This document shows positions 1-64,000 of a stretch of DNA of 64,000 nucleotides, piece by piece. The stretch lies in contig NC_061782.1 in assembly GCF_022458985.1 (NCBI RefSeq), positions 20,659,672 through 20,723,671 on the forward strand, given 5' to 3'. The first letter of the stretch is position 1; every line of letters begins with the position of its first letter. This DNA comes from Mugil cephalus. Lineage: Eukaryota > Chordata > Actinopteri > Mugiliformes > Mugilidae. Made by a program: the position numbers and the translations under genes. Below the pieces are notes generated by a model. The model saw only the letters and a list, made by a program, of their open reading frames with translations, was not told where the DNA came from and searched no databases.

Positions 1-3000
1 AACAGGCCCGACAGTTACAGAAGTTACCAGTAGCCATTCCCACACACAAGCTGCCTGATAAAATGATTCCCAGGTAACAGGAAGTCAATGCTGTCAATTA
101 TTTACCAACTCTTAATTCCTTTTATTAAAGGTACTTTAAAAATCGGTAGAGTTTCAAAGATCCTCTAATCATTTACTCAACTCTGTTAAGTCGCTGAGAA
201 TTAAATAACTTACCACTGAAAAGGAAAACAGTCTTTATCTATGTCTGAATCATCTGTGTACACCAGCCTCAACACAGAAAGCCTTTTTAAGTGACATGTT
301 TTCGTTTTTGTCTGTTTACAGGAAGTTTGCTGTGTCCAATAAAATTCCAGACACTAAAGGGTGCCAAAAGTGCTGCGTAGGTGAGTTTTGTCAAAGATGA
401 CGTCCTATTTCCATGACTACTCATTTCTTGATTATGCAATACTTCATGTTTTCGCCTGACTTTATCGGACCTTACTGAGATCGTTCCTGTTACTGTAAGC
501 TACATAGGAGGCATAGCCAAGTAGAACATTACACTTAGTATTTAAAATGACAATGTTATTTCACACTATATAACAAGACAAAGCATCAGGTAACTAATTT
601 CTCAGGAATATAATAGTTAAATGCACACAAAGGACCAAATATGTCTTACTTTAGTTACTGATAACTTGTTGTGTCCATGTAGTTCGTAACCCGTACACAG
701 GCCATAAGTACCTGTGTGGAGCCTTCCAGTCCAGTGTCATGCTGCTGGAGTGGGTGGAGTCCATGCAGAAGTTCATGCTCATCAAGGTCAGTTTAACTCT
801 ACAAAAAACTCATTTCTATCTTCTCACCTCCTTTTTTTTTTTTGGATAAGTCACAATGAAACGCATGGGCACATTTTTCAGAACACTGGCTAATAAAAAC
901 TTTACATATCACTTTAAGGTATTACATCTGCTCTATTCCCTAGTTTGATTTTAGATGAATTTGGAGTTTAAGCTACATTATTAGTAATTATTAGTTCTCC
1001 ATTTACATTCTGTAGCATAACATACTACTGGGGGACAGCAATAGACAAACGCATGTAATACTTCTGATTCTCATCTGCCTTCATCTCCACAGAACATTGA
1101 TTTCCCGTTGCCCTGTCCGATGGAGGTCTTTGAGATGTTGGTGGTCCCGGAGCAGACCTACCCTCTGATCTGCGTGGCGGTCAGTAAAGGAACCGAGCTC
1201 AACCAGGTGGTCCGATTCGGCACCGTCAACCCCAACTCTACCTCCTCCTGGTTCACAGAAACAGGTGAGCGCTTCTTCTCCTACGCTAAACCGACAGCGC
1301 TGAACGATGCAGGTGTGACCGAAATGTTAAACAAAAGACTCCCTCCTCTCTGCAGACACACCACAGTCTTGCGTGATTCACGTCACTCAGCTAGAGAGAG
1401 ACACCATCCTCGTCTGCCTCGACAGTGAGTGGCCCACTTTAGTCATGTGAACATTGTCTAGTTTCAGCTGTTTCAGGTCAGAATTCTCCTGTTTTACCTG
1501 AGTTTCTTATTGTTTGTCTCTTCTCCACCTCTTTCTGCAGGATGTATAAAGATAGTGAACCTCCAGGGCCGGTTGAAATCCAGCAGGAAGTTGTCAGCTG
1601 AGCTCACCTTCAACTTCCAGATCGAATCCATTGGTAAAGGACTTGAAACATTTCATAAACCACTTAAATAAAAACTTCTCATGACATGACTGCAGAGACT
1701 TGATAGCATAGGGCTACATGTTCAATGAAACCAAAAGGTCACCTCTTACACCTCTTACAATTTAGAGAACTAGAAGTGGCCTGTATGTCTCCTGTTGGAT
1801 TTGTACAGTATAAGGACTCCAGTTGTTCATTCATTCATTGGTTGTTTGATTACTTCCACACATTAATGCTCCTTAAACAACAATCTGCTTGTGTTTCTCA
1901 GTTTGTCTCCAAGACAGCGTCCTGGCCTTCTGGAGGCATGGCATGCAGGGGCGGAGTTTCAAGACCAACGAGGTGAGATATGGAGTTCTCTGTACATTAT
2001 TTAAAACCCTGAGGCAGCCCTGGTATCATGTTCACTGCCAGGCTCCACTACGATTAGATGTCATTAAATGTGAGACTATAATTAGATTTTAGCTACTCCT
2101 CCTGTTGCTGCAATATTAGTGAATTAAAGTCAGGTTAGATCTACCATGGATCCTAACTTGACCTTCACCTACATCGCACGCCTGTCCTACTCCACGTCTC
2201 TTTGCGTTCAGATAGACAAAGAACACACTACCTCCTTCTGCCTCCTATTCACTGTTCCACTCAGACGTCATCTCTCTGTTGTGCGTTGCAGTGATCTCAG
2301 CAAAAGTAACGCTTGTTCGACGCAGATTAGCTCCGACTCCACAAGAGCCCCTCAGTTCATGTCGCCATTGTCTGAGCACACAGAGAAACTCGACCCAGCT
2401 GGCTAGAGGCCAGGTGGCAGTTCAGTGACATCATTACAGAAAGATGGCGGCGCACAAGTATAAACGCTTCCAACGGTGGAGCTTGTTACAATGAAGGCTC
2501 TGTTGCAAGAGCATATACAAAGTCAATTAGATGTAGGTTGTGTAGACTTTCATCTTCTATCATGACAGTAATAACTGTGTAACTGCAGCCAGAATGTGTT
2601 GCAGCATCTTTGACACTGACCAATTAAATACATGGAGTTGATTCAAAACCAATTGATTGTGATATTACCATCTGAAATTGTGGATCTGGTTCTCTGCAGA
2701 TGTACGACAACTTGAGCAGTTTGTTTTACCTTTGTTCAAGACTGTTTGTTCTGACTGTGAAGCTTGTATGTGATCACAAATGTTGGTCAGGACGTCAGTG
2801 TTTCTAATAATTATCAGCGTTTTCACTGCCTTGACCTCTCTGTGTCTTTTCTCCTTGGTCAGATCACGCAGGAGATCTCTGACAGCACACGCATCTTCAG
2901 ACTACTGGGATCAGACAGGTGACAAACACAGCCCTCTCACTCCACACACACTCACACACACAGACACTCTTAGCTCTCCGTTAACACGCTCTCTGATGTC

Positions 3001-3805
3001 TTAGAGATCCAGAGGCCGAGGACAAAGGCCTCGCTCTACCCAGGTACACTCGCAGCTCACTGGCCGCACACGGCCCAAACCTCTGCCTCTTTCTGTCGGG
3101 TATCTCGAGGCCTGCTTCACGTTATCCATCAGGAGCATTTAGACCAAGGGGGAAGAGACAGTGTGCCTGAAGAAAGCCATGAGAATATAGACACCAGAAT
3201 AATCTGTCCCAGGCCTGGCCTTTAATCTCAATTTAATGTAAAATGTGGCAAGATTCGTATCAGGTTGGTAAAACCTGCGCAAAATATTAAATTACTTTAG
3301 AGCGGACTGGATCATTTTGGCGTCTATTGTCTCATGACCGAGAGGAGTCTCTTTAAGGTGTAATGTATGAGTCTTTGTAAGAGTATTAACACGTTTTCCT
3401 GAATTCTCCTCAGTGTAAACAGAGTACAGGGCAAAGTCAACTCTCTCTGCTCCCTTTTTCCCCAAATAACAGGGCTTTTACAGGCTTGAACCGTATCCTC
3501 TGTGGGTCCCTATGTGTGGCTGTCTTCACTCTTTATTTTATTAAGTAATGCATTTAACTCGGTCAGACTAAACTAATAACATGCTGAAAATCGGGCTGGG
3601 ATGTTCTTTTGTGTGGGATATAAAGGTGAAATGAAGTCTGAAGCTTTACCGTCTTCCCTTGAAACTGACCCGGACGTCGTTCTTGTGTTCTTTTCCGTTG
3701 ACGTGTTTGTGTTGCAGGGTGGTGGTGCTGGAGAGCAGGCCGACGGACAACCCTACGGCCCACAGCAACCTCTACATCCTGGCGGGCCACGAAAACAGCT
3801 ACTGA
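1..3805 (+). CDS. map4k3: MAP4K3 (GLK-type MAP4 kinase), 3' part: citron-homology domain and C-terminus
   Basis: This is the C-terminal 260 residues of a germinal-centre-kinase-family MAP4 kinase, a cytoplasmic Ser/Thr kinase acting upstream of JNK and in amino-acid/mTORC1 signalling. The kinase domain lies left of the window. Coding exons are <3-73, 322-380, 683-786, 1093-1264, 1356-1424, 1541-1633, 1902-1972, 2863-2918 and 3718-3805 (stop TGA 3803-3805), and all phases agree. The protein is the citron-homology (CNH) beta-propeller, with [39 protein letters not shown] and the family terminus [14 protein letters not shown]4K3 is preferred over the close paralogue MAP4K5 because of [15 protein letters not shown] and [18 protein letters not shown], which follow my memory of MAP4K3, and because arhgef33 lies next door. 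Where the first visible exon starts is uncertain, since only its end is seen. The gene faces arhgef33 tail to tail. Confidence 0.9.
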
Positions 3806-3955
3806 GACACTCTCACACAAACATACCCGCACATTGAGACACTCTGTTAAACGCCCTCATCACTAGAGCAGACGGCGGGGGCGAGCGAGCGCCGCGCCGC
3901 TGACCCCGTCTTCACCTTCTCACCTGGCTGTGCGACTGGGAGATGAGCAGTTCGT

Positions 3956-3985
3956 GGGGAGGGGGAGGGGGTGGGGGTGGCGGGG
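3956..3985 (+). other. G-rich tract with quadruplex potential in the map4k3 3'UTR
   Basis: Five runs of four or five Gs are separated by single A or T spacers, about 150 bases after the map4k3 stop codon and on the transcribed strand. The pattern meets the usual G-quadruplex rule (G3+ runs, loops of 1-7). It follows a CpG-rich stretch at 3868-3905. Confidence 0.6.
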
Positions 3986-4263
3986 CACAGGTGTGGATTT
4001 CCCAGTTACAGCCAGTTAAAATGCACCGCAGTGTTATATGTGTATCAGTGAAGTGTGTTGTATTGTAGCGGCGGGTTGTGGAGCTGCTTCACGCAGGGCG
4101 AGGGTTCAAACCGCTGAGGCCTGAGGTCAGCTTTGGGTTGAGATGGCCGGGGAATCTCATCACTGCAACTCTTTTCATCTCGCCTACCCCTGCATAATGT
4201 ACACTGGGAAAACGTCATCCAGCACGGAAATCTGAACACTACTTCTACTACTAGCTCTACACA

Positions 4264-4299
<36 letters not shown>

Positions 4300-4300
4300 A
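4264..4300 (+). repeat. (TAC)n microsatellite in the map4k3 3'UTR
   Basis: About twelve tandem TAC/CTA triplets. The imperfect flanks (ACTTCTACTACTAGC before, GCTACTGCTACTC after) suggest a longer decayed array. Confidence 0.9.
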
Positions 4301-7300
4301 GCTACTGCTACTCGCGCTAAAGCTTCACAAAGGGCCATCTTGCACAGAAAACCCACCTTTCTCTCTTTTATTGTTTTTCTTATCTCTCCCCCTGCCCTTT
4401 TTTTTCCTCCACTTTTTAAAAACTACCCCTTTATTTATTGTGGCATGTTGTAACTTTAACAACCGGGATGACTTTCCTGTTTTTATTCGTTCTAGTTTTT
4501 TTGTTTTTTTTTTATTATTTTCTTTGGTTTTTTTAAGGATAGAAAAGAGAAAGCCGACTAAAAAGCTTCGCCACTTTCGCTAGCGTCGAATTCCAATACC
4601 ACACCACACAAGTGCTTAATTGACCTCTATTTAATTGTTGTAAATATAAATGTAGTATTTTTTTGACAGAGACGAACACTAAAAAGACTGGTCATGTAGA
4701 TAGGCGTGTGTATAGTCGCTCTGTGCAACTGTGGAGACGAACAGAGACAAGCGGCCGCGGAGGATATGGCAGTAAATTCACTTTGGACTTCCTTGATCAT
4801 GTGACGTGGGTCAGGCAGACCCCCTGCAGTCTCCTCAGGTGGAGCTTTAGTAATCTGATATTACTCTTATAATGGTGTCGAGCTCAGGGTCGAACTGAGC
4901 CAACACGGGAGGTGACACAGATCGGTCATAATCACCCTGCATGCCAACGTAACTTCCTGCTTGTATGCACCATAGCAACTGTCGTCAGGGCAGCGGAGTT
5001 CTGTTCATTTAAGTTGGGTTTTTCGTTTTCCACATCATCCTTTTCGTTTTTTTTTTGTTTCGTTTTTTTATGCTGTTTTAATCAGAAATCTTTGTTCTCT
5101 CATGCTATTTTTTACTTTTATTGAACCACTGGTGTTAAGAATTTGCACAGAGAAAAATGTATTTCATAAACAAATGTGATGTCATTATAATATATGATGT
5201 TGTGTGTATGCACAGTGTGAGAGTGTATGCGTGTGTGTTTGGGTAGACGTGGAGTATGCACATACAAGTGCATCGTGTACAGACCTGGTCTTTAACAGGT
5301 GACAGATGTGTTGGCTGTCAAAGAGCATCAAGACATTTTAAAGGATGAGAAAAAAAGGCAGATTTACACAGAAATAACAAGAAATTAGATTTCTATGAAA
5401 GGCCTCCTATGACTGTTAGTCATAACTTAAAGCGGTAATTTTGTATAAATGAACTGATTTAAGGACTTCTGTCTAAACAGTTAGGTAAACCAATTGACGA
5501 TTCTATTTACTCCTGCAAGGACAAAAACAACACCATAGAATAATTTTTAGGTCATGCTTGTTTTTTTCCTTCCATTGTTTCACCTCACTAAATTTTATTT
5601 AAATTTTTCTCTCTTATATTTACGCCCCTTCCCACTTGTAGCTAAGCTGCGTTCCACAAGCCTCCATTAGAAAATGAGTCTTTTTCAAAGCATCTTGCTC
5701 GTAACAATTTAAAACAAAAAAAAGTAACCCCGGTTTCTCTGAGTGCAACTCGATTACGTATAATGAGCGGCATGTCCTACGGCGTTATGTGTTTATGTGA
5801 AGAGAAGTGGAGTCAGTGTTGCTCCTTATTGTGTTTCTGTGTGATTCCTCGTGTTTTAATCGTTTTAGTAATAATCTGAGAGAGGTTTTAATCTTCGGCC
5901 TTCACCGCTGTGGCTTTTTAAAGGCCGACGTCTGTATGAGATTTGACATACATGGCATGCATGTAGATGTGCACTGTGGTGTGTAGAGGAGTCTACATGT
6001 GGCAGGACACTACCAGACTTTACAAGCTGTGACACTCGAGGTTGCTTCTGAGGACATAGACATTAGTTTAGTTTAGTTTGAACCTAACTGAGATACTATC
6101 CTGTCATGCTGACATCCTACGGAGCTCTGGCTCTTGTTTTCATTGCTTTATTTATCTCTAAATATGAACAGGAGAAAGCTTAAGTCTGTTAGTCAACCAA
6201 AAATGGATCATTACAAACATGAATTACAGACAAAGACAAAACGCTTCTGAGCAAATTCTACACCGACAAGGAGCACACAATACTGGTATTGATATACAGC
6301 TGGTTATCAGTATGGCAACAGTGATACGTCTGGTTGTTGCAGACTTAAATTGCTCGTGGAGGAAATCTTGATTCTGTTTTTCTGCCATTTTGAGGTTTAT
6401 ACTACATATTTGTACATGTCAGCAGTGATTTATTTAGTTAAAAAAAGAATAATTTGAAAGCAGAGAAGCAATGACAGCATTGGTTTTTAAGGTTAGCTAT
6501 AGAGTAGATGGGATCATGCATCACCTGACGTGTCCATTAATGTTGTGAAGGTGGCTCTATAAGCGTTGCCATGTTGGGGAACTGAACGGCAACTGAAAAC
6601 GTAATGTACCACCCTTCAGTTTCTCCTCGACTTCATTTTTCTCTTTGCGTACAGTGAAACTGAATTTTATGGTTGATTGTGTCATGCATATTTTTGGTCT
6701 TCGTTCTGACATCACAGCATGTCCTCCTCCAACCATTGAGAGACACGAACTAAACTAAGCCCCTTCACACTTTTCGCTTTTTCCATTTTTATGGGATTTA
6801 TTTGTGGATCCTCTCACTGAGTCTAAGAGTTTGAATTGAAATTGTTATGTTTTTTTTTTTTGTTTGTTTTTTTAAATGATCTGTGCACGCTTTTATTAAA
6901 ATAAATTGTGCTCCATTGCACCTGGATCATGCAAAACTAAAGCCTTCACGTTACAGCCATAGAAAAGATCAAATCTGGTAGTTTGTCAACAAACACAACA
7001 TATTTTCACTATTTATATTTTTAAAATGATTTTTTTATCAGTAGCGAACGGTAAAATGCATTGTTGTTGCTTTGAATTGCCTACAAAGTGCATTAGTGCC
7101 CCAGACGAGCGAGTCAGCTTTGATCGTGCAAATACATGTGCTTCCTGCCAACGGATCCAGACTGGGCAAAATATATCAGGGCTGCAGCCGAGTGCGTCAT
7201 TTAAGCTAAAATCTGTTCATTATTGTCAAAAGATATAAGTAAACCATTAAGACAAATTAATATTGTCGACCCAGCACGACTTCATTGTAAATCTGGATAA

Positions 7301-37604: not shown

Positions 37605-40412
<2,808 letters not shown>

Positions 40413-41100
40413 ATGTTGTGCTACTCTGCCGACCCCAAGGTCTTCCATGGCAGGACATCAGTCATCCACCTCCATCCTGCAATTGGCTGCTTCAACTTAA
40501 TAATCAAAGACTGGTTAATCATCACAATGCATCGCAAAAGCATTAGAAGGAAAAACAAACAAAAAAAAACTTTTCAATCTTAAGTCTTTGAGGCGGCACT
40601 CTTGACTCCATTTCAGTGGTTAGATTATCACTAAATACAATGTAATACCTAAAAGATAGTTTCAAATCTGATTTGGTTCGTGGCAGTACCTTTCTTTGAA
40701 ACTGAGATTTGAACAATTAGAGATATTGTGATTCATCACCTTTCTGGCTCTCTGGAGTGTGGTTCTCTTTGCATAGTACGTGTGGTCCTGCTTTTAGTGT
40801 TTGTTTGCAACAACATGGTGCTTGGTAGAAGCCCATGGCAAGAAGTTTAAAACTATGTTCTTCAGAGTAGTTGATGAGTAGAATATTTGTGTTTAAGCTT
40901 TAAAAACACTTGAAACTAAAGGTCTAATTTGTCCTTCTTTAGGGACTCAAAGTAGACCAATCGTTGATTGTTAAAGCACTTTGATTGGCTATTTGCTAAC
41001 TTCGCACTGGCACTGGAGAAGTTTAAATTGGCATAAGCTACTGCACCTTATTCTAAGATGGCATGAGCCTCTTTGCAACATTAAACATATTTCAACCAAA
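40413..41100 (+). other. eef1a1: eef1a1 3' untranslated region, partly inside tandem unit 1
   Basis: This is the 3' flank of eef1a1. No AATAAA follows closely. An ATTAAA at 41080-41085 is the first good signal, giving a 3'UTR of about 690 bases. From 40574 onward the sequence is repeated upstream of cGAS copies 2 and 3, but those copies lack about 45 bases near 40711-40755 and a block of about 30 bases that includes the ATTAAA. Confidence 0.5.
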
Positions 41101-41706
41101 ATGTGTTGTTGTCTTTGAATTTTATTGTGTGATTCACAGAAGTGACAAAGCATGAGATGCCTTCCATTACTAGCGGGCCTGACAAAAATCTTAGTCAGAG
41201 AATAACAATACACATTTAGTCCACCAGATGTAGCTATTAATGAAGAAATAAAACAAGCCATTAGTAATGACTTTCAAATAAACTGAATAAAGATCATATG
41301 GATTATTAAACTCCCGTGGGACTGAAAATGTGCAAAATGGTCGAAATATGACTAAATATAATTCTGAAACTTAATTCTGATTCTGGCTGTTTCCCAAATT
41401 TGCTAGCAACAACATGATTGGCTGATTGTGGTGGTGGCAAAAATCTAACCGGTTAAACCAGAGACACCCACAGTCAGCAGACCAATTGAAACAGAATGAG
41501 AGAGTGCAAGAGGGAACAGAGTGAACACGTTTTCAGGACTGTCTTCCAGACTGAACATTGGTTGAGTTTAATTTTCAACTACAAAGGCTGGAACAGCACA
41601 AAGGGCAGTCTGACTAATCGTGAAGAGGCGTGCTGTCCTACCACAACAGGAAATACTTTTTCTTTCATTTACGCCCGTGCAGCTTCATTCCTCTTAATGC
41701 ACCGCC

Positions 41707-44700
41707 ATGACTGGTAGAGGGAGACAACACAAAGCAAAGAGCCCGGAAGCTGAATGTACTACGAGCAAAAATAGAAATGGAGAAATTAAAGAAGTTTTAC
41801 TTCCCAGATGTACAGACTTCACAGAAGAAAAACGGAATGAAACTTCAAAGACGGCAAAACCAAAGAAAATGGAAAAGGAAAGCCGCACTGAAGATAATCC
41901 AAAAGCACGAAAGCTTGCTGCTAGGACACGGACACCAAAAGAAGAGACAACCAAGATGCAGCAAGAAACTGTTGAGGACGCTACAAAGGCTCCTGTCAAG
42001 ACCACTAAAGTAAGAGCAGGTGGTGGGAAGGCAAAGGTAGAAGAAGTATTGGATAAGGAGACAAAGATGCAGTCAGAAGTATTGATGGAGGGGAAAAAGA
42101 GACAGACACAGATGCCAAAGACTACCACAGCGCCTCCTGAAAAGACCACAAAAGCTAAAAAATCTGCTAGCATTTCACCAGAGGAATTGAAAGAGACAAC
42201 CAAGATACAGCCAGAGACAGCTGAGGACAATAAAAAAGCTCCTATAAAATCCAATAAAACAAGAGCAAGTTGTAACATGCCAAAAGGCAAAGTACAACCT
42301 GAGATAAAGACACAGTCAGATGATACCACAAACGCTCCTGAAAAGACTGTGAAAGCTGAAGCATCTGCTGAGAAACCAGAGGATACTACAAAAGGGATGG
42401 TGGAAGACAGACATGCAGTACACAATACCCTTCGCACTACTTTGGAAAAACTGAAGATTAAGAGCAATGACAAAGTAAATACATCAAAAGTCATCAATGA
42501 AATAAGAAAAATTATAGTCGAACATTTAAAAAAACATTCACAACACTTTAAAGAAGTTGAAACACCACTGAATACTGGAAGTTACTACGAAAATGTAAAG
42601 GTAAGTTATTTTAGTCCAAGTATGTTGAAGAAAACCTTAGTGGTCAATAAATGGTGCATAGAACTCTGATTGAAACATAAAGCCTGTCTTACTATGACTT
42701 ACTATCATATATGCAGATTCAACAGTGATGTTTTTGTGCCAACAGATTTCCAATCCTGATGAATTCGATGTTATGTTTCCTATGCCGGTCGAACGAGTGG
42801 ACATTCAACCATTTGGAGATGAAGGCGCCTTTTACAAAGTGGCATTGAAACGTGGCAACAACCCTCTGAACGATTTTCAAGAGAACGACACTTTGTCTGC
42901 TAGTAAAATGCTTGAGGAGTTCAGGGAAGAAGTGAAGAAATCCGTCAAGGAATCTAAAGGTAAGCACCAAAAATTACCAGGGGGTAGAGTCATAAAAGAC
43001 ATAAAAGAAACTCGCATGATTACTGTCTGTTACTTACTTTGTTTACTTTTACTTTTTTACTTCGTTGGAGAAGACTGTTTTACCACAACCTCTTGTCCAC
43101 AACACATGAGTGGCAAAACGTCTTCAAGAAGCTCTCCAAATCCAGTTGCCCTTTCTTCAGTGTGTTTGGGTATACGATAATTCATTGTTTCATTTTTCCT
43201 TTCAGAATGGCAGGTGACAAAGAAGGAAAGAGGCTGTCCTGCAGTGACTCTGACCACACAAGTACAATCAGTCCCATTTCGCTTGATGTTGTTCTCTGTC
43301 TCATGGTTAAATCAAGCTGGCCAAGTTTCACAAATGACGGCTTTCAAATAGAGCACTGGCTCGGAAGGAAAGTAAAGGATGAATACAAAAGGAAGCCATA
43401 TTATTTTGTACCAAAATATAAAGGAAGGGGTACAGAGGAAAAGGATGGGGTCCTTGCTAAAGGTAAGTCTTTTTCCTTCAACAAGTCAGACTGTGGTTAC
43501 CAGCCCTCAAGTCATTTTTATTTTGCCATGAACTGCACTTGCAATTGCAAAACACACCACATAAACGAGAAATTCAACACTTGCTTGATACTATTACATT
43601 TCTGGAGTTGATCATTTTATGACAAGATCAAGCTCAGAGTTGTTGAATTTAAAATCATTTTAACCTTCCACTGACTAAAGACTGCTATGTCTAACTTCCA
43701 GATGCCTGGCGGATTTCATTTTCTCACATTGAGAAAGACATTCTGAGGAATCACGGATCAGAGAAGACGTGCTGTGAGAAAGATGGTGCATCTTGCTGCA
43801 GGTTAGGTTTAAACGAACTTAGTGAAACTAAGTCCAAGGTTTCTGAAGGGACCACCAAGTAAAGACCACATTCATACCAAATTACTCAACATGACAGAAA
43901 ACCTTAACGGCAACATGGCTTTTTTTTCTTCGAATACTTCCCAAGTATTTAACAATGTTCTTAGGCCTGGACTCAGACTAGTGAAATAACGGGTTGGGTT
44001 TATTAACCTGGAAAATGATTAATGCATTTAGTTAACATGCATTAGGGGGAATAAAATGAAGAAATATTTAGAAAAAATAGGGAAACATGACAAAAATATA
44101 AAAAACATATGTAGACTTTATAGCCACTGTAAGTTTGTTGTGAGATGAAGAGCTTCAAGGCCAACGCAGGCTCATGCCCACAGTACTTGCTGCCAGTGCA
44201 TGAACCACTGATGAACTTTTAGTTCAAATATCTCACAATCGGACATAAAAATCTAGTATTACCTACTACAGCAGGCAAGACAAGCCTGGCTTCTTAATGT
44301 CTAAGGCTTTTTGGGTAAACTGAATTCATCATCTCTATGACTTTACAAACCGAGAATAATCTTATTTCTGCTCATGATTGCAAACTGCTCTGTTCCTTTG
44401 TCTTTACATACAGGAAAGACTGTTTGAAGCTCCTAAAGCACCTCCTCCATCTGCTGAAGGAAAAGAACTCTTCATTTGACAAGTTCTACTCCTATCATGC
44501 CAAGACTGCACTCTTCCACGCCTGCTCTTCAAGGACTAAAGACAGCGACTGGAGTGCCTCGAATCTAAGCCACTGTTTTCAGCAGCTCCTGAAGGACTTT
44601 GAAAACTACCTGCTAAATGGTCGACTCTCCAATTTCTTCATCCCAAGTCAGAACCTGCTCTCTGGTTGTAGCCAGAAAAATGTGCAAGAGTCTGGCCGAC

Positions 44701-44741
44701 AGTATCAAGGAGCAACGCGAAAAGGGTTTTCCTATTTTTAA
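41707..44741 (+). pseudogene. cgas: cGAS copy 1 (cyclic GMP-AMP synthase), frame-damaged
   Basis: cGAS binds cytosolic DNA and makes 2'3'-cGAMP to trigger STING. Exons: 41707-42600, 42746-42959, 43206-43462, 43702-43801 and 44414-44741; splice sites are intact. Seen: a Lys/Thr/Glu-rich N-terminus, [11 protein letters not shown], the DEFDVMF catalytic acids and, further on, the zinc-thumb pattern H-x5-CC-x6-C. Exon 3 has CCC at 43272-43274 where copies 2 and 3 have CCCC. That shifts the frame just before the third catalytic Asp and reaches a stop at 43349-43351, leaving about 417 aa. Exon 5 has five As where copies 2 and 3 have four, changing the last 20 or so residues. Both changes lie in homopolymers, so assembly error is possible; if real, this is a recent pseudogene. 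Its 5' leader differs from those of copies 2 and 3. A short upstream ATG frame (41697-41717) overlaps the start codon. Confidence 0.8.
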
Positions 44742-44888
44742 GTAACAACTTGACAACGCACACCAAATGTTTGTCATGTACAATCACCATTGTCTTTGAA
44801 ACGCCTCTTAAGTAGATACTGAACTACATATATGAAAATAGGATATATGTCATTTATGTTATTTGTAACAACTGAATTGCTTTGTTTT

Positions 44889-45012
44889 GATATACTATAT
44901 TGATCCCTGAGAGGAAATTCTGTCCTGCTGTTTGAGCCATCCATTTGTTCACACAGTAATGTGTACAGTTGGAGCAGTGGGCTGCAGCCCCTCTAGTGGG
45001 TGCGCCCGGGGA
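44889..45012 (+). mobile_element. Interspersed-repeat fragment in the 3' flank of cGAS copy 1
   Basis: About 124 bases are present in units 1 and 2 but replaced by five bases (ACCAA) in unit 3. It carries ATTGATCCCTGAGAGGAAAT and TTGGAGCAGTGGGCTGCAG...GCGCCCGGGGA, phrases of a common teleost repeat. It lies just upstream of the likely poly(A) signal ATTAAA (45023-45028). Confidence 0.6.
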
Positions 45013-45028
45013 ATGAAGCCTTATTAAA

Positions 45029-46388
45029 ACCCATTGATACTGTCATTGCTCACATTTTGGATTTTGTCTGTTTGTTGAATTCTTTGTAATGACATGAAAT
45101 ACTAAAACTGCTAAGCTAGAGAATATCAAAAAAGATAATTTGCCACTAATAACTACAAGTTAATGTTACAGTTGAACCTCAATCTTAATTATATTTAGTT
45201 TAATACTTATAGTTACTAATACAAAGTTTAATGCTGCTACATGGGATTATTTGGCAAATATAATTATGTTTTTTTTTTTTGTTTTTTTTTTTAATTTTCA
45301 GTTAATGGATACTTTGATGCAAATATTCCACACTAATAAATCAATAAATATCCCTGTGGCACAACAGAGACTGCATGGTAAGGCTCTAAAAATACAACCA
45401 TATGTAAGTTTTAAACAAGCTATGATTTAAATAAATTCTAAAGCCAATGGTTATTGTAGAGAACTAGTTTAAAAGGCATTTTGACAAGCACATGAAGTTT
45501 TCAACATGCAGACTTTGCACTGAATGATGGGACAGAATAGGATCTGATAATGAATGTTGTTGTTAAAATAATGGAAAATAGTGCTTGTAGCAGTAAGTCA
45601 ATAAACATATATTCCTACTGATATTATTGGTTAGAAGCTTAGACACGTCAGACATCAAGAAACACAGATTAGGGCAGCGTAATGGCAAGCTCACATATGG
45701 CTTCATTAACGATTCTATGGAAGAACTGAAGAAGTAACTCAGATGAGAAGGGCATCCTTTTGAAAGCCGCACAAGTATTTGAAGAAAAAAAAATCAATCT
45801 TAAGCTCTTGAGGCAGCGCTCTTGACTCCATTGCTGTGGTTAGATTATCACTAAATACAATGTCATCTAAAAGATAAATTGAAATATGATTTGGTTCATA
45901 GCAGTATCTTTCTGTGAAACTGAGACTTTGAAGTGTGGTTCTCTTAGGATAGTACGTGTGGTCCTGCTTGTAGTGTTTGTCTGCAACTACATGGTCCTTG
46001 GTAGACGCTCATGGTAAAAAGTTTAAAACTATGTTCTTCAGAGTAGTTGATGAGTAGAATATTTGTGTTTAAGCTTTAAAAACACTTGAAACTAAAGGTC
46101 TAATTTGTCCTTCTTTAGGGACTCAAAGTAGACCAATCATTGATTGTTAAAGAACTTTGATTGGCTATTTGCTAACTTGGCACTTGCACTGGAGAAGTTT
46201 ATACTGGCATAAGCTACTGCACCTTATTCTAAGATGGCATGAGCCTCTTTGCTGTTGTCTTTGAATTTTATTGTGTGATTCACAGAAGTGACAAAGCATG
46301 AGATGCCTTCCATTACTAGCGGGCCTGACAAAAATCTTAGTCAGAGAATAACAATACACATTTAGTCCACCAGATGTAGCTATTAATG
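45029..46388. other. Spacer between cGAS copies 1 and 2
   Basis: No gene is seen. It comprises the AT-rich 3' flank of copy 1, the 78-base unit junction (45716-45793) and the eef1a1 3'-flank-derived start of unit 2. A CCAAT/ATTGG pair (about 46130-46165) is shared by all units. Confidence 0.7.
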
Positions 46389-46496
46389 AGCTTGTGTGAG
46401 CGAATGGGTGGATGTGTCTCTGACTGTAAAAAGTGCTTTGAGTACCTTTGAATAGGTAGAAAAGCGCTATATAAAGGCAAGACCATTTACCATTTA
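46389..46496 (+). mobile_element. SINE-like 3' tail replacing 5'-flank sequence in unit 2
   Basis: It reads GTGTGAGCGAATGGGTGGAT, TAAAAAGTGCTTTGAG, AATAGGTAGAAAAGCGC and ATATAAAGGCAAGACCATTT ACCATTT, the characteristic 3' end of a teleost short repeat also seen in older form at 8925-9170. Units 1 and 3 have about 70 bases of different AT-rich sequence at this place, although unit 3 keeps a similar CTATATAAAGTCAAGA. Confidence 0.6.
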
Positions 46497-46872
46497 AACT
46501 CCTGTGGGACTGAAAATGTGCAAAATGGTGAAATATGACTAAATATAATTCTGAAACTAAAACTGATTCTGGTTGTTTCCCAAATTTGCTAGCAACAACA
46601 TGATTGGCTGATTGTGGTGGTGGCAAAAATCTAACTGGTTAAACCAGAGACATCCACAGTCAGCAGACCAATTGAAACAGAATGAGAGAGTGCGAGAGGG
46701 AACTGAGTGAACACGTTTTCAGGACTGTCTTCCAGACTGAACATTAGTTGAGTTTAATTTTCATCTTCAAAGGCTGGAACAGCACAAAGGGAAGTCTGAC
46801 TAATCGTGAAGAGGCGCGCTGTCCCACCACAACAGGAAATACTTCTGGGTGTATTAATGCCCGTGTACCGCC

Positions 46873-49800
46873 ATGACTGGTAGACGGAGACAACACAAAG
46901 CAAAGAGCCCGGAAGCTGAATGTACTACGAGCAAAAATAGAAATGGAGAAATTAAAGAAGTTTTACTTCCCAGATGTACAGACTTCACAGAAGAAAAACG
47001 GAATGAAACTTCAAAGACGGCAAAACCAAAGAAAATGGAAAAGGAAAGCCGCACTGAAGATAATCCAAAAGCACGAAAGCTTGCTGCTAGGACACGGACA
47101 CCAAAAGAAGAGACAACCAAGATGCAGCAAGAAACTGTTGAGGACGCTACAAAGGCTCCTGTCAAGACCACTAAAGTAAGAGCAGGTGGTGGCAAGGCAA
47201 AGGTAGAAGTAGTATTGGATAAGGAGACAAAGATGCAGTCAGAAGTATTGATGGAGGGGAAAAAGAGACAGACACAGATGCCAAAGACTACCACAGCGCC
47301 TCCTGAAAAGACCACAAAAGCTAAAAAATCTGCTAGCATTTCACCAGAGGAATTGAAAGAGACAACCAAGATACAGCCAGAGACAGCTGAGAACAATAAA
47401 AAAGCTCCTACAAAATCCAATAAAACAAGAGCACGTTGTGGCAAAGCGCAATTTGAGGAACAGACACAGTCAGATGATGCCACAAACGCTGCTGAAAAGA
47501 CCGCGAAAGCTGAAGCATCTGCTGAGAAACCAGAGGACACTACAAAAGGGATGGTGGAAGACAGACATGCAGTACACAATACCCTTCGCACTACTTTGGA
47601 AAAACTGAAGATTAAGAAGAATGACAAAGTAAATACATCAAAAGTCATCAATGAAATAAGAAAAATTATAGTCGAACATTTAAAAAAACATTCACAACAC
47701 TTTAAAGAAGTTGAAACACCACTGAATACTGGAAGTTACTACGAAAATGTAAAGGTAAGTTATTTTAGTCCAAGTATGTTGAAGAAAACCTTAGTGGTCA
47801 ATAAATGGGCATAGAACTCTGATTGAAACATAAAGCCTGTCTTACTATGACTTACTATCATATATGCAGATTCAACAGTGATGTTTTTGTGCCAACAGAT
47901 TTCCAATCCTGATGAATTCGATGTTATGTTTCCTATGCCGGTCGAACGAGTGGACATTCAACCATTTGGAGATGAAGGCGCTTTTTACAAAGTGGCAATG
48001 AAACGTGGCAACAACCCTCTGAACGATTTTCAAGAGAATGACACTTTGTCTGCTAGTAAAATGCTTGAGGAGTTCAGGAAAGAAGTGAAGAAATCCGTCA
48101 AGGAATCTAAAGGTAAGCACCAAAAATTACCAGGGGGTAGAGTCATAAAAGACATAAAAGAAACTCACATGATTACTGTCTGTTACTTACTTTTACTTTT
48201 ACTTTTTTACTTTGTTGGAGAAGACTGTTTTACCACAACTTCTTGTCCACAACACATGAGTGGCGAAAACGTCTTCAAGAAGCTCTCCAAATCCAGTTGC
48301 CCTTTCTTCAGTGTGTTTGGTATACGATAATTCATTGTTTCATTTTTCCTTTCAGAATGGCAGGTGACAAAGAAGGAAAGAGGCTGTCCTGCAGTGACTC
48401 TGACCACACAAGTACAATCAGTCCCCATTTCGCTTGATGTTGTTCTCTGTCTCATGGTTAAATCAAGCTGGCCAAATTTCACAAACGACGGCTTTCAAAT
48501 AGAGCGCTGGCTTGGAGGGAAAGTAAAGCAACAATACAAATGGAAGCCATATTATCTTGTACCAAAATATAAAGGAAGGGGTACAGAGGAAAAGGATGGG
48601 GTCCTTGCTAAAGGTAAGTCTTTTTCCTTCAACAAGTCAGACTGTGGTTACCAGCCCTCAAGTCATTTTTATTTTGCCATGAACTGCACTTGCAATTGCA
48701 AACACACCACATAAACGAGAAATTCAACACTTGCTTGATACTATTACATTTCTGGAGTTGATCATTTTATGACAAGATCAAGCTCAGAGTTGTTGAATTT
48801 AAAATCATTTTAACCTTCCACTGACTAAAGACTGCTATGTCTAACTTCCAGATGCCTGGCGGATTTCATTTTCTCACATTGAGAAAGACATTCTGAGGAA
48901 TCACGGATCAGAGAAGACGTGCTGTGAGAAAGATGGTGCATCTTGCTGCAGGTTAGGTTTAAACGAACTTAGTGAAACTAAGTCCAAGGTTTTTGAAGGG
49001 ACCACCAAGTAAAGACCACATTCATACCAAATTACTCAACATGACAGAAAACCTTAACGGCAACATGGCTTTTTTTTCTTCGAATACTTCCCAAGTTTAT
49101 TTAACAATGTTCTTAGGCCTGGACTCAGACTAGTGAAATAACGGGTTGGGTTTATTAACCTGGAAAATGATTAATGCATTTAGTTAACATGCATTAGGGG
49201 GAATAAAATGAAGAAATATTTAGAAAAAATAGGGAAACATGACAAAAATATAAAAAACATATGTAGACTTTATAGCCACTGTAAGTTTGTTGTGAGATGA
49301 AGAGCTTCAAGGCCAATGCAGGCTCATGCCCACAGTACTTGCTGCCAGTGCATGAACCACTGATGAACTTTTAGTTCAAATATCTCACAATCGGACATAA
49401 AAATCTAGTATTACCTACTACAGCAGGCAAGACAAGCCTGGCTTCTTAATGTCTAAGGCTTTTTGGGTAAACTGAATTCATCATCTCTATGACTTTACAA
49501 ACCGAGAATAATCTTATTTCTGCTCATGATTGCAAACTGCTCTGTTCCTTTGTCTATACATACAGGAAAGACTGTTTGAAGCTCCTAAAGCACCTCCTCC
49601 ATCTGCTGAAGGAAAAGAACTCTTCATTTGACAAGTTCTGCTCCTACCATGCCAAGACTGCACTCTTCCACGCCTGCTCTTCAAGGACTAAAGACAGCGA
49701 CTGGAGTGCCTCGAATCTAAGCCACTGTTTTCAGCAGCTCCTGAAGGACTTTGAAAACTACCTGCTAAATGGTCGACTCTTCAATTTCTTCATCCCAAGT

Positions 49801-49896
49801 CAGAACCTGCTTTCTGGTTGTAGCCAGAAAATGTGCAAGAGTCTGGCCGACAGTATCAAGGAGCAACGCGAAAAGGGTTTTCCTATTTTTAAGTAA
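46873..49896 (+). CDS. cgas: cGAS copy 2 (cyclic GMP-AMP synthase), intact
   Basis: This is the intact copy: five exons (46873-47754, 47899-48112, 48356-48613, 48852-48951, 49566-49896), 1785 bases, 594 aa, all phases agreeing. Residues 1-231 are a basic Lys/Thr/Glu-rich region with an imperfect repeat (79-112 and 163-196: xTKxQxET..KAPxK..K.RA..GKA). The Mab21/nucleotidyltransferase domain begins near 232. Catalytic features: G287-S288 in [11 protein letters not shown]300 and D302 in DEFDVMF, and D393 in ISLDVV, matching human G212-S213, E225, D227 and D319. LSASKML is intact. Zinc thumb: H469, C475, C476 and C483, matching human H390, C396, C397 and C404. The end is FPIFK (human FPVFDEF). 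The product should sense cytosolic or viral DNA and signal through STING. Residues 406-433 differ from the other copies. A short upstream ATG frame (46857-46883) overlaps the start. Confidence 0.95.
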
Positions 49897-50038
49897 CAAC
49901 TTGACAACGCACACCAAATGTTTGTCATGTACAATCACCATTGTCTTTGAAACGCCTCTTAAGTAGATACTGAACTACATATATGAAAATAGGATATATG
50001 TCATTTATGTTATTTGTAACAACTGAATTGCTTTGTTT

Positions 50039-50163
50039 TGATATACTATATTGATCCCTGAGAGGAAATTCTGTCCTGCTGTTTGAGCCATCCATTTGTT
50101 CACACAGTAATGTGTACAGTTGGAGCAGTGGGCTGCAGCCCCTCTAGTGGGTGCGCCCGGGGA
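50039..50163 (+). mobile_element. Interspersed-repeat fragment in the 3' flank of cGAS copy 2
   Basis: This is the same fragment as at 44889-45012, almost identical, inherited by duplication rather than by a second insertion. The poly(A) signal ATTAAA follows at 50174-50179. Confidence 0.6.
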
Positions 50164-50179
50164 ATGAAGCCTTATTAAA

Positions 50180-51979
50180 ACCCATTGATATTGTCATTGC
50201 TCACATTTTGGCTTTTGTCTGTTTGTTGAATTCTTTGTAATGACATGAAATACTAAAACTGCTAAGCTAGAGAATATCAAAAAAGATAAGTTGCCACTAA
50301 TAACTACAAGTTAATGTTACAGTTGAACCTCAATCTTAATTATATTTAGTTTAATACTTATAGTTACTAATACAAAGTTTAATGCTGCTACATGGGATAA
50401 TTTGGCAAATATAATTATGTTTTTTTTTTGTTTTTTTTTTAATTTTCAGTTAATGGACACTTTGATGCAAATATTCCACACTAATAAATCAATAAATATC
50501 CCTGTGGCACAACAGAGACTGCATGGTAAGGCTCTAAAAATACAACCATATGTAAGTTTTAAACAAGCTATGATTTAAATAAATTCTAAAGCCAATGGTT
50601 ATTGTAGAGAACTAGTTTAAAAGGCATTTTGACAAGCACATGAAGTTTTCAACATGCAGACTTTGCACTGAATGATGGGACAGAATAGGATCTGATAATG
50701 AATGTTGTTGTTAAAATAATGGAAAATAGTGCTTGTAGCAGTAAGTCAATAAACATATATTCCTACTGATATTATTGGTTAGAAGCTTAGACACGTCAGA
50801 CATCAAGAAACACAGATTAGGGCAGCGTAATGGCAAGCTCACATATGGCTTCATTAACGATTCTATGGAAAACTGAAGAAGTAACTCAGATGAGAAGGGC
50901 ATCCTTTTGAAAGCCGCACAAGTATTTGAAGAAAAAAAAATCAATCTTAAGCTCTTGAGGCAGCGCTCTTGACTCCATTGCTGTGGTTAGATTATCACTA
51001 AATACAATGTCATCTAAAAGATAAATTGAAATATGATTTGGTTCATAGCAGTATCTTTCTGTGAAACTGAGACTTTGAAGTGTGGTTCTCTTAGGATAGT
51101 ACGTGTGGTCCTGCTTGTAGTGTTTGTCTGCAACTACATGGTCCTTGGTAGACGCTCATGGTAAAAAGTTTAAAACTATGTTCTTCAGAGTAGTTGATGA
51201 GTAGAATATTTGTGTTTAAGCTTTAAAAACACTTGAAACTAAAGGTCTAATTTGTCCTTCTTTAGGGACTCAAAGTAGACCAATCATTGATTGTTAAAGA
51301 ACTTTGATTGGCTATTTGCTAACTTGGCACTTGCACTGGAGAAGTTTATACTGGCATAAGCTACTGCACCTTATTCTAAGATGGCATGAGCCTCTTTGCT
51401 GTTGTCTTTGAATTTTATTGTGTGATTCACAGAAGTGACAAAGCATGAGATGCCTTCCATTACTAGCGGGCCTGACAAAAATCTTAGTCAGAGAATAACA
51501 ATACACATTTAGTCCACCAGATGTAGCTATTAATGAAGAATAAAACCAGCCACTTTAGTAAGACTTTAATAAAAACTATATAAAGTCAAGATTGAAATTT
51601 TAAACTCCCGTGGGACTGAAAATGTGCAAAATGGTCGAAATATGACTAAATATAATTCTGAAACTTAATTCTGATTCTGGTTGTTTCCCAAGTTTGCTAG
51701 CAACAACATGATTGGCTGATTGTGGTGGTGGCAAAAATCTAACCGGTTAAACCAGAGACATCCACAGTCAGCAGACCAATTGAAACAGAATGAGAGAGTG
51801 CGAGAGGGAACTGAATGAACACATTTACAGGACTGTCTTCCAGACTGAACATTAGTTGAGTTAGTTTTTATCTTCAAAGGCTGGAACAGCATAAAGGGAA
51901 GTCTGACTAATCGTGAAGAGGCGCGCTGTCCTACCACAACAGGAAATACTTCTGGGTGTATTAATGCCCGTGTACCGCC
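50180..51979. other. Spacer between cGAS copies 2 and 3
   Basis: No gene is seen. Content: the AT-rich 3' flank of copy 2, the 77-base junction (50864-50940), then eef1a1 3'-flank-derived sequence and the copy 3 5' flank. CCAAT-type boxes lie at about 51282, 51711 and 51776. Confidence 0.7.
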
Positions 51980-54900
51980 ATGACTGGTAGAGGGAGACAA
52001 CGCAAAGCAAAGAGCCCGGAAGCTAAATGTACTACGAGCAAAAATAGAAATGGAGAAATTAAAGAAGTTTTACTTCCCAGATGTACAGACTTCACAGAAG
52101 AAAAACGGAATGAAACTTCAAAGACGGCAAAACCAAAGAAAATGGAAAAGGAAAGCCACACTGAAGAGAATCCAAAAGCACAAAAGCTTGCTGCTAGGAC
52201 ACGGACACCAAAAGAAGAGACAACCAAGATGCAGCAAGAAACTGTTGAGGACGCTACAAAGGCTCCTGTCAAGACCACTAAAGTAAGAGCAGGTGGTGGC
52301 AAGGCAAAGGTAGAAGTAGTATTGGATAAGGAGACAAAGATGCAGTCAGAAGTATTGATGGAGGGGAAAAAGAGACAGACACAGATGCCAAAGACTACCA
52401 CAGCGCCTCCTGAAAAGACCACAAAAGCTAAAAAATCTGCTAGCATTTCACCAGAGGAATTGAAAGAGACAACCAAGATGCAGCCAGAGACAGCTGAGGA
52501 CAATAAAAAAGCTCCTATAAAATCCAATAAAACAAGAGCACGTTGTGGCAAAGCAAGAGACAAAGTGCAATTTGAGGAACAGACGCAGTCAGATGATGCC
52601 ACAAAGGCTCCTGAAAAGACTGCGAAAGCTGAAGCATCTGCTGAGAAACCAGAGGACACTACAAAAGGGATGGTGGAAGACAGACATGCAGTACACAATA
52701 CCCTTCGCACTACTTTGGAAAAACTGAAGATTAAGAAGAATGACAAAGTAAATACATCAAAAGTCATCAATGAAATAAGAAAAATTATAATCGAACATTT
52801 AAAAAGACATTCACAACACTTTAAAGAAGTTGAAATACCACTGAATACTGGAAGTTACTACGAAAATGTAAAGGTAAGTTATTTTAGTCCAAGTATGTTG
52901 AAGAAAACCTTAGTGGTCAATAAATGGAGCATAGAACTCTGATTGAAACATAAAGCCTGTCTTACTATGACTTACTATCATATATGCAGATTCAACAGTG
53001 ATGTTTTTGTGCCAACAGATTTCCAATCCTGATGAATTCGATGTTATGTTTCCTATGCCGGTCGAACGAGTGGACATTCAACCATTTGGAGATGAAGGCG
53101 CCTTTTACAAAGTGGCATTGAAACGTGGCAACAACCCTCTGAACGATTTTCAAGAGAAGACACTTTGTCTGCTAGTAAAATGCTTGAGGAGTTCAGGGAA
53201 AGAAGTGAAGAAATCCGTCAAGGAATCTAAAGGTAAGCACCAAAAATTACCAGGGGGTAGAGTCATAAAAGACATAAAAGAAACTCACATGATTACTGTC
53301 TGTTACTTACTTTTACTTTTACTTTTTTACTTTGTTGGAGAAGACTGTTTTACCACAACTTCTTGACCACAACACATGAGTGGCGAAACGTCTTCAAGAA
53401 GCTCTCCAAATCCAGTTGCCCTTTCTTCAGTGTGTTTTGGTATACGATAATTCATTGTTTCATTTTTCCTTTCAGAATGGCAGGTGACAAAGAAGGAAAG
53501 AGGCTGTCCTGCAGTGACTCTGACCACACAAGTACAATCAGTCCCCATTTCGCTTGATGTTGTTCTCTGTCTCATGGTTAAATCAAGCTGGCCAAGTTTC
53601 ACAAATGACGGCTTTCAAATAGAGCACTGGCTCGGAAGGAAAGTAAAGGATGAATACAAAAGGAAGCCATATTATTTTGTACCAAAATATAAAGGAAGGG
53701 GTACAGAGGAAAAGGATGGGGTCCTTGCTAAAGGTAAGTCTTTTTCCTTCAACAAGTCAGACTGTGGTTACCAGCCCTCAAGTCATTTTTATTTTGCCAT
53801 GAACTGCACTTGCAATTGCAAACACACCACATAAACGAGAAATTCAACACTTGCTTGATACTATTACATTTCTGGAGTTGATCATTTTATGACAAGATCA
53901 AGCTCAGAGTTGTTGAATTTAAAATCATTTTAAACTTCCACTGACTAAAGACTGCTATGTCTAACTTCCAGATGCCTGGCGGATTTCATTTTCTCACATT
54001 GAGAAAGACATTCTGAGGAATCACGGATCAGAGAAGACGTGCTGTGAGAAAGATGGTGCATCTTGCTGCAGGTTAGGTTTAAACGAACTTAGTGAAACTA
54101 AGTCCAAGGTTTCTGAAGGGACCACCAAGTAAAGACCACATTCATACCAAATTACTCAACATGACAGAAAACCTTAACGGCAACATGGCTTTTTTTTCTT
54201 CGAATACTTCCCAAGTGTATTTAATAATGTTCTTAGGCCTGGACTCAGACTAGTGAAATAACGGGTTGGGTTTATTAACCTGGAAAATGATTAATGCATT
54301 TAGTTAACATGCATTAGGGGGAATAAAATGAAGAAATATTTAGAAAAAATAGGGAAACATGACAAAAATATAAAAAACATATGTAGACTTTATAGCCACT
54401 GTAAGTTTGTTGTGAGATGAAGAGCTTCAAGGCCAACGCAGGCTCAAGCCCACAGTACTTGCTGCCAGTGCATGAACCACTGATGAACTTTTAGTTCAAA
54501 TATCTCACAATCTGACATGAAAATCTAGTATTACCGACTACAGCAGGCAAGACAAGCCTGGCTTCTTAATGTCTAAGGCTTTTTGGGTAAACTGAATTCA
54601 TCATCTCTATGACTTTACAAACCGAGAATAATCTTATTTCTGCTCATGATTGCAAACTGCTCTGTTCCTTTGTCTTTACATACAGGAAAGACTGTTTGAA
54701 GCTCCTAAAGCACCTCCTCCATCTGCTGAAGGAAAAGAACTCTTCATTTGACAAGTTCTACTCCTATCATGCCAAGACTGCACTCTTCCACGCCTGCTCT
54801 TCAAGGACTAAAGACAGCGACTGGAGTGCCTCGAATCTAAGCCACTGTTTTCAGCAGCTCCTGAAGGACTTTGAAAACTACCTGCTAAATGGTCGACTCT

Positions 54901-55851
54901 TCAATTTCTTCATCCCAAGTCAGAACCTGCTCTCTGGTTGTAGCCAGAAAATGTGCAAGAGTCTGGCCGACAGTATCAAGGAGCAACGCGAAAAGGGTTT
55001 TCCTATTTTTAAGTAACAACTTGACAACGCACACCAAATGTTTGTCATGTACAATCACCATTGTCTTTGAAACGCCTCTTAAGTAGATACTGAACTACAT
55101 ATATGAAAATAGGAGATATGTCATTTATTTTATTTGTAACAACTGAATTGCTTTGTTTACCAAATGAAGCCTTATTAAAACCCATTGATATTGTCATTGC
55201 TCACATTTTGGCTTTTGTCTGTTTGTTGAATTCTTTGTAATGACATGAAATACTAAAACTGCTAAGCTAGAGAATATCAAAAAAGATAAGTTGCCACTAA
55301 TAACTACAAGTTAATGTTACAGTTGAACCTCAATCTTAATTATATTTAGTTTAATACTTATAGTTACTAATACAAAGTTTAATGCTGCTACATGGGATTA
55401 TTTGGCAAATATAAATGTTTTTGTTTGTTTTTTTTAATTTTCAGTTAACGGACATTTTGATGCAAATATTTCACACTAATAAATCAATAAATATCCTTGT
55501 TGCACACCAGAGACTCTAAAAATACAACCTCATGTAAGCTTTAAACAAGCCACAATCCAAAATGCATTTTAAAGCCAATGGTTATTGTAGAGAACTAGTT
55601 TAAAAGGCATTTTGACAAGCACATGAAGTTTTCAACATGCAGACTTTGCACTGAATGATGGGACAGAATAGGATCTGATAACGAATGTTATTAAAATGAT
55701 GCAAAATAATGGAAAAATAGTGCATGTAGCAGTAAGTCAAACACACATTCCTACTGATATTATTGGTTAGAATCTTAAACTCGTCAGAACAATCAAGAAA
55801 CAGATTAGGGCAGCGTAATGGCAAGCTCACATATGGCTTCATTACTGATTC
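50941..55851 (+). repeat. Tandem duplication unit 3 (cGAS copy 3)
   Basis: The last direct repeat. Similarity to units 1 and 2 ends at ACTGATTC (about 55844-55851), exactly where the junction segment begins in the other units. Its 3' flank (55400-55850) is the most diverged part of the array. Confidence 0.9.
51980..55016 (+). CDS. cgas: cGAS copy 3 (cyclic GMP-AMP synthase), open but with a rewritten core segment
   Basis: Five exons (51980-52873, 53019-53232, 53476-53733, 53972-54071, 54686-55016), 1797 bases, 598 aa, with a continuous frame. The catalytic GS, E/D pair, third Asp (ISLDVV) and zinc thumb are present. In exon 2 one base is missing near 53159 (GAGAAGAC for GAGAACGAC) and one A is gained near 53201. 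Fifteen residues therefore change from [15 protein letters not shown] to [15 protein letters not shown] before the frame is regained. SASKML is conserved from fish to human in the nucleotidyltransferase fold, so activity is doubtful. Alternatively two sequencing errors are present, one of them not in a homopolymer. The N-terminal region resembles copy 2 with four more residues. Exon 3 matches copy 1 over the stretch where copy 2 differs. An upstream ATG frame (51964-51990) overlaps the start. Confidence 0.88.

Positions 55852-57969: not shown

Positions 57970-64000
<6,031 letters not shown>

Follow-up and report, generated by a model that had tools for sequence, protein, structure and literature searches.

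The DNA sensor cGAS is a single-copy gene in humans. In fish, two genes, cGASa and cGASb, are reported for zebrafish and grass carp (PMC7582293, PMC11264591), and cGAS is listed among the expanded genes of the large yellow croaker, Larimichthys crocea (PMC4383535). Tandem arrays of two or three copies are described for another gene, pkr, in pufferfish (PMC7582293), and an animal-wide survey of cGAS-like receptors counts such genes in 381 species (PMC9980059). Here, we describe an array of three cGAS genes in the mullet Mugil cephalus, located in a stretch of 64,000 nucleotides on contig C13 (NC_061782.1, positions 20,659,672 to 20,723,671 of the forward strand), to which we refer as the window. 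In our assessment, this array is probably a host innate-immunity locus formed by tandem duplication, gene conversion and a recent unequal crossover, in which the second copy is working, the first is decaying and the third is doubtful. A first-pass annotation of the window had noted that cgas duplications are known in some fish, which agrees with the reports on zebrafish, grass carp and croaker (PMC7582293, PMC11264591, PMC4383535). The units of the array, their genes and the sequences that join them are as follows.

40558 to 45715, + strand: unit 1 (U1), with its left edge 146 base pairs (bp) past the eef1a stop codon
41707 to 44745, + strand: cGAS copy 1, exons 41707-42600, 42746-42959, 43206-43462, 43702-43801 and 44414-44745
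45716 to 45781, no strand: junction filler between U1 and U2, 66 bp, with no match to either outer flank in the search made
45782 to 50863, + strand: unit 2 (U2), a recombinant with its left arm as in U3 and its right arm as in U1
46873 to 49896, + strand: cGAS copy 2, intact, 594 amino acids, exons 46873-47754, 47899-48112, 48356-48613, 48852-48951 and 49566-49896
about 50864 to 50928: second, near-identical filler, between U2 and U3
50929 to 55851, + strand: unit 3 (U3)
51980 to 55016, + strand: cGAS copy 3, exons 51980-52873, 53019-53232, 53476-53733, 53972-54071 and 54686-55016

In a comparison of the window with itself, the three units appear head to tail, spaced by 5,176 and 5,147 bp. 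The segment 40750-41076 matches 45926-46252 and 51073-51399 with 94.5% identity each, and the gene-bearing bodies of the three units match with 96.9-97.7% over 3.6-5.1 kilobases (kb). All three units are direct, which rules out an inverted arrangement, and the window is free of N and thus of assembly gaps. The array had initially been placed at 40574 to 55851; its right edge stands, but in an alignment of higher sensitivity the left edge lies at 40558, for an extent of 15.3 kb. Exon number and order are shared by the units, with five exons in each, and all internal splice sites have AG/GT in all three copies. Processed copies or a processed pseudogene are ruled out, as the four introns are kept in every copy. 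The catalytic part of copy 2 (the last 373 residues) matches solved cGAS structures over its residues 15-372 with a best E value of 1.4e-94, compared to 1.6e-20 for cGAS-like receptor 1 and 2.3e-7 for MAB21L1. A Pfam scan of the whole copy 2 protein yielded Mab-21 (PF03281, 121.6 bits) and Mab-21_C (PF20266, 85.6 bits), and exons in each of the three units match PF03281. Thus, the self-comparison, the exon order with its splice sites and the match to cGAS bear out the proposal of three direct, five-exon cGAS units and, as assembled, that of a local tandem amplification.

As assembled, the copies are also unequal in their integrity, as the first-pass annotation had stated. Its further claim, that each of them carries the catalytic residues and the zinc thumb, holds for the DNA: codons for the GS motif, E/D...D and the zinc thumb are present in all three copies, and the sequence of the thumb (H-x5-CC-x6-C) is identical among them. 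However, the GS motif, E-x-D and the third Asp share one frame in only two of the three, copies 2 and 3, and the same two have the zinc thumb in frame. Only copy 2 is intact in the conventional sense, with 594 codons and all catalytic and zinc-thumb residues; judging from its sequence, its product most likely functions as a cytosolic sensor of DNA and supplies STING with 2'3'-cGAMP. The third exon of copy 1 contains a C run that is one base shorter than in the other two copies, and the frame ends after 417 codons without reaching the third catalytic Asp, the zinc thumb or the C-terminal domain; what it still encodes is the basic N-terminal half together with the first catalytic motifs. In exon 5, an A run has one extra base. 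Copy 3 retains the catalytic and zinc-thumb residues in an open frame of 598 codons, but in its second exon one missing and one extra base (-1/+1) turn 14 residues into an out-of-frame patch. The replaced residues correspond to a conserved segment around LSATKML in solved cGAS, so the catalytic part of copy 3 appears likely to be damaged. Under our preferred reading, copy 1 as assembled would be a pseudogene in the course of decay, and the status of copy 3 is doubtful.

What can be discerned about the history of the array from the divergence of its parts? The outer ends, namely the left flank of copy 1 and the right flank of copy 3 as compared with the corresponding sequence in the junctions, differ at 35 of 458 sites on the left (7.6%) and at 47 of 679 on the right (6.9%); for their inner counterparts, the figures are 0 of 458 (U2 versus U3) and 6 of 700 (U1 versus U2). 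Between the two internal junctions, filler included, an alignment of 1,001 bp shows a single mismatch and a single gap, for an identity of 99.8%. In the core, which comprises the gene bodies, the three pairs of copies differ at 63 of 3,421, 72 of 3,433 and 55 of 3,422 sites (1.6-2.1%), and their introns diverge by 0.5-1.05%. The recombinant middle unit, the shared junction and the higher divergence of the outer ends compared to the inner ones place the locus among arrays shaped by crossover and conversion. Since the junctions share 99.8% identity over a stretch that includes a filler matching neither flank, both presumably derive from one old duplication joint; and since core and introns lie well below the divergence of the outer ends, gene conversion has presumably kept the gene bodies alike. 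The filler at 45716-45781, at the original joint, suggests end joining with inserted sequence.

The pattern fits a scenario in which the first duplication is old and only the step from two to three copies is recent. A single ancestral cgas gene would have been duplicated in tandem together with its own upstream and downstream sequence. Gene conversion would then have held the two gene bodies similar while the outer ends drifted apart, until, recently, the left and the right copy recombined by unequal crossover and gave rise to a middle copy, with the left arm of the right-hand copy and the right arm of the left-hand copy. Assuming that neutral sites change at a rate of 5e-9 per site and year, the first duplication would have taken place about 7-8 million years ago, and the third copy would be about 0-1 million years old. 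With such a young age, the third copy could still be polymorphic; it may be that, or have been produced by the assembly through a switch between haplotype paths. The mosaic and the near-identical junctions agree with the earlier description of an array in flux. The accompanying suggestion of a recent expansion applies to the step from two to three copies, but not to the first duplication, given that the outer ends have diverged by 7-8%.

Superimposed on this mosaic, unit 2 carries two patches of its own.

48356 to 48613, + strand: exon 3 of copy 2, with 10 private substitutions in 257 compared bases
46387 to 46497, + strand: high-copy repeat element, near-consensus, in U2 only, with the start codon of U2 about 0.4 kb downstream

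In the rest of the core, copy 2 has 16 private substitutions in 3,162 bases; the resulting Fisher p of 8.8e-6 is optimistic, because the comparison was made after the cluster had been seen. Private substitutions in exon 3 are absent from copies 1 and 3, which are identical there apart from the frameshift of copy 1. Eight of the ten differences in exon 3 are nonsynonymous, for a nonsynonymous/synonymous ratio of about 1.1. In our reading, the patch preserves part of an earlier divergence among the copies that conversion between copies 1 and 3 left in place, and it is no proof of selection. A divergent cGAS gene on contig C14, described below, was considered as a donor, which proved unsupported on inspection of the protein alignment. 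The repeat element, for which a first look gave 1,405 candidates, is 90-95% identical to at least 40 other places among the matches listed. At its position, U1 and U3 have degenerate, apparently related sequence; the U2 copy could stem from ectopic conversion or be a new insertion.

Several points weigh against this reconstruction. The array, its frames and its frameshifts are known from one assembled sequence. An assembler switching haplotypes in a two-copy array would yield the same mosaic (A, B/A', B'), and the inner arms diverge by 0-0.9%, within the range that alleles could show. The patches of copy 2, in exon 3 and at the repeat element, moreover require additional conversion events beyond a simple crossover. 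That the true haplotype has two cgas copies, with the third arising from such a switch and the frameshifts left behind by short-read polishing of near-identical copies, is nevertheless rather unlikely in our estimation. A path switch would account exactly for a middle copy that is B on the left and A on the right, with arm differences at the level of alleles (0/458 and 6/700), and short reads are hard to place where repeats are nearly identical. The frameshifts could be genuine or stem from errors in the consensus. That of copy 1 must be either younger than the last exchange between copies 1 and 3 or an error, as their exon 3 sequences are otherwise identical, which this alternative would accommodate. 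It would likewise accommodate the distribution of single-base indels: four of the nine indel sites in the core fall into coding exons, which make up 52% of the core, about as if the frameshifts were unselected, and therefore in line with decay without selection as well as with consensus error. As proof of consensus error, an excess of single-base indels was looked for between the copies and not found, with 6 indels versus 55-72 substitutions per pair. As a control, the exons of eef1a are unbroken by eye and three other Mab-21 matches in the genome are open over 379, 404 and 427 codons, a set too small to decide. The likely source assembly, according to its description, was obtained with wtdbg2 from PacBio subreads of more than 30 kb and polished with Illumina reads (PMC9247318), a procedure that makes a switch with polishing errors conceivable; yet subreads of this length would cross the whole array. 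Also against a two-copy haplotype are the 10 private exon 3 substitutions of copy 2 and its own repeat element, which exceed the divergence of the arms, as well as the lack of N in the window and of any indel excess. Thus, the array is most likely real, with known processes explaining its origin.

The first-pass annotation had further invoked an expansion under pathogen pressure, for which we find no support: the whole-gene nonsynonymous/synonymous ratios of the three pairs are 0.73, 1.57 and 0.97 on small counts, and two of the three copies look damaged. Three functional sensors and a pathogen-driven expansion are thus not supported here. For a scenario in which all three copies are functional and diversify under pathogen pressure, with an altered helix encoded by exon 3 of copy 2, one could cite the exon 3 cluster with its nonsynonymous majority and the exon 1 ratios of 1.08, 1.47 and 2.16, the latter based on small counts of 18-26 differences per pair, with one copy frameshifted further on. 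We consider it very improbable, however, given that the ratio in exon 3 is neutral-like and that conversion between U1 and U3 explains the cluster as well. Furthermore, exons 2 and 5 have ratios of 0.12-0.25 where defined, on at most four differences each, and as assembled copy 1 loses its active site and copy 3 contains a scrambled stretch. The damaged copies could, in principle, have been kept as regulators, with the truncated copy 1 or the altered copy 3 binding DNA or STING and thereby damping copy 2. A stop upstream of introns should expose an mRNA to nonsense-mediated decay, and the stop in exon 3 of copy 1 precedes two introns; we therefore regard a regulatory role as extremely improbable, even though copy 1 retains its basic N-terminal half and first catalytic motifs, and a competition of cGASb with cGASa for STING is reported in grass carp (PMC11264591). 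It is also improbable, though less so, that grey mullets harbor a live, copy-number-variable cgas array in which conversion shuffles exon 3 variants between copies and the damaged copies are maintained, modifying dosage or acting as dominant-negative regulators of DNA sensing, with individuals differing in copy number and interferon response.

Outside the catalytic part, the genes have a long, lysine-rich and imperfectly repetitive N-terminal half (41707-42400 in copy 1, with equivalent regions in copies 2 and 3; TTKMQ.E, AEDxxKAP), whose lysine-rich segment contains a 12-bp in-frame indel between copies. Copy 1 has 20 bp (41678-41697) just ahead of its start codon that copies 2 and 3 lack, so that the 5' leader or core promoter differs between copies. 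Within 1.5 kb upstream of the three copies, no strict GAAANNGAAA, an interferon-response element, was found on either strand, and TTCNNNGAA occurs at only two sites per copy. The array is flanked by the following genes.

37623 to 40412, + strand: eef1a, the left neighbor, from coding start to stop
58000 to 64000, - strand: DDX43/DDX53-type RNA helicase, the right neighbor, convergent; its extent is approximate, from open frames

Also to the left lies an exon of a sialin-type SLC17A5 gene (E value 2.6e-30). The one solved relative listed for the helicase is DDX53 (E value 8.2e-10 over 46 residues), which we take to be close to DDX43, and DEAD-box motifs follow further on. As human CGAS presumably adjoins EEF1A1 and DDX43, the neighbors slc17a5, eef1a and a DDX43-type gene are of the kinds that had been anticipated.

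To place the array in its genomic context, a Mab-21 profile was searched against the whole genome (634,849,253 bases in 24 contigs), in which only the 13 best candidates were scored. The nine matches listed comprise five on the C13 array, one on C2, two on C9 and one on C14; among these, there is no fourth near-identical cGAS copy elsewhere. The match on C2 and one of those on C9 presumably represent MAB21L genes, and the second on C9 is more distant. The match on C14 (C14:19756000-19765900, at 2758-7233 of that piece) is a divergent single cGAS gene, pieces of which are 29-60% identical to copy 2. It has its own zinc thumb and an extra intron in its last part, and its last exon runs 60 residues beyond the usual end, terminating in a hydrophobic stretch of 19 residues (mean hydropathy 2.23) that could be a membrane anchor. 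Matches to STING comprise three exon-sized pieces, which lie at one locus on C5.

The dosage of cGAS trades antiviral alarm against autoinflammation. A natural array between two and three copies would lend itself to testing whether additional cGAS is tolerated by fish or of advantage to them, and how a DNA sensor is affected by conversion and decay. At the same time, it carries a warning for long-read assemblies: where repeats are near-identical, frameshifts should be checked against reads before a pseudogene label is assigned.

How does the mullet locus relate to described systems? In the titles and abstract beginnings, mostly top-ranked ones, of openly licensed literature, no description of a tandem cGAS triplicate or of a mullet cGAS was found, a weakly tested negative. 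With vertebrate cGAS (CGAS/MB21D1), the mullet genes share a catalytic part that can be matched over nearly its full length, the catalytic residues and the zinc thumb and, presumably, the five exons of human CGAS with its eef1a and DDX43-type neighbors; they differ in the presence of three tandem copies, in the long lysine-rich N-terminal half and in the damage to two copies as assembled. Like the teleosts with cGASa and cGASb (PMC7582293, PMC11264591), the mullet has more than one cGAS gene, including the divergent, dispersed copy on C14; its extra copies, in contrast, are near-identical tandem repeats. An expansion of cGAS is likewise listed for another percomorph, Larimichthys crocea (PMC4383535), and the pkr arrays of pufferfish show that a nucleic-acid sensor of the interferon pathway can occur in two or three tandem copies in a fish, albeit in a different gene family (PMC7582293). 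With the duplication of cGAS in fish already published, the mullet array thus looks like the outcome of known processes acting on a known gene, rather than a new kind of sensor.

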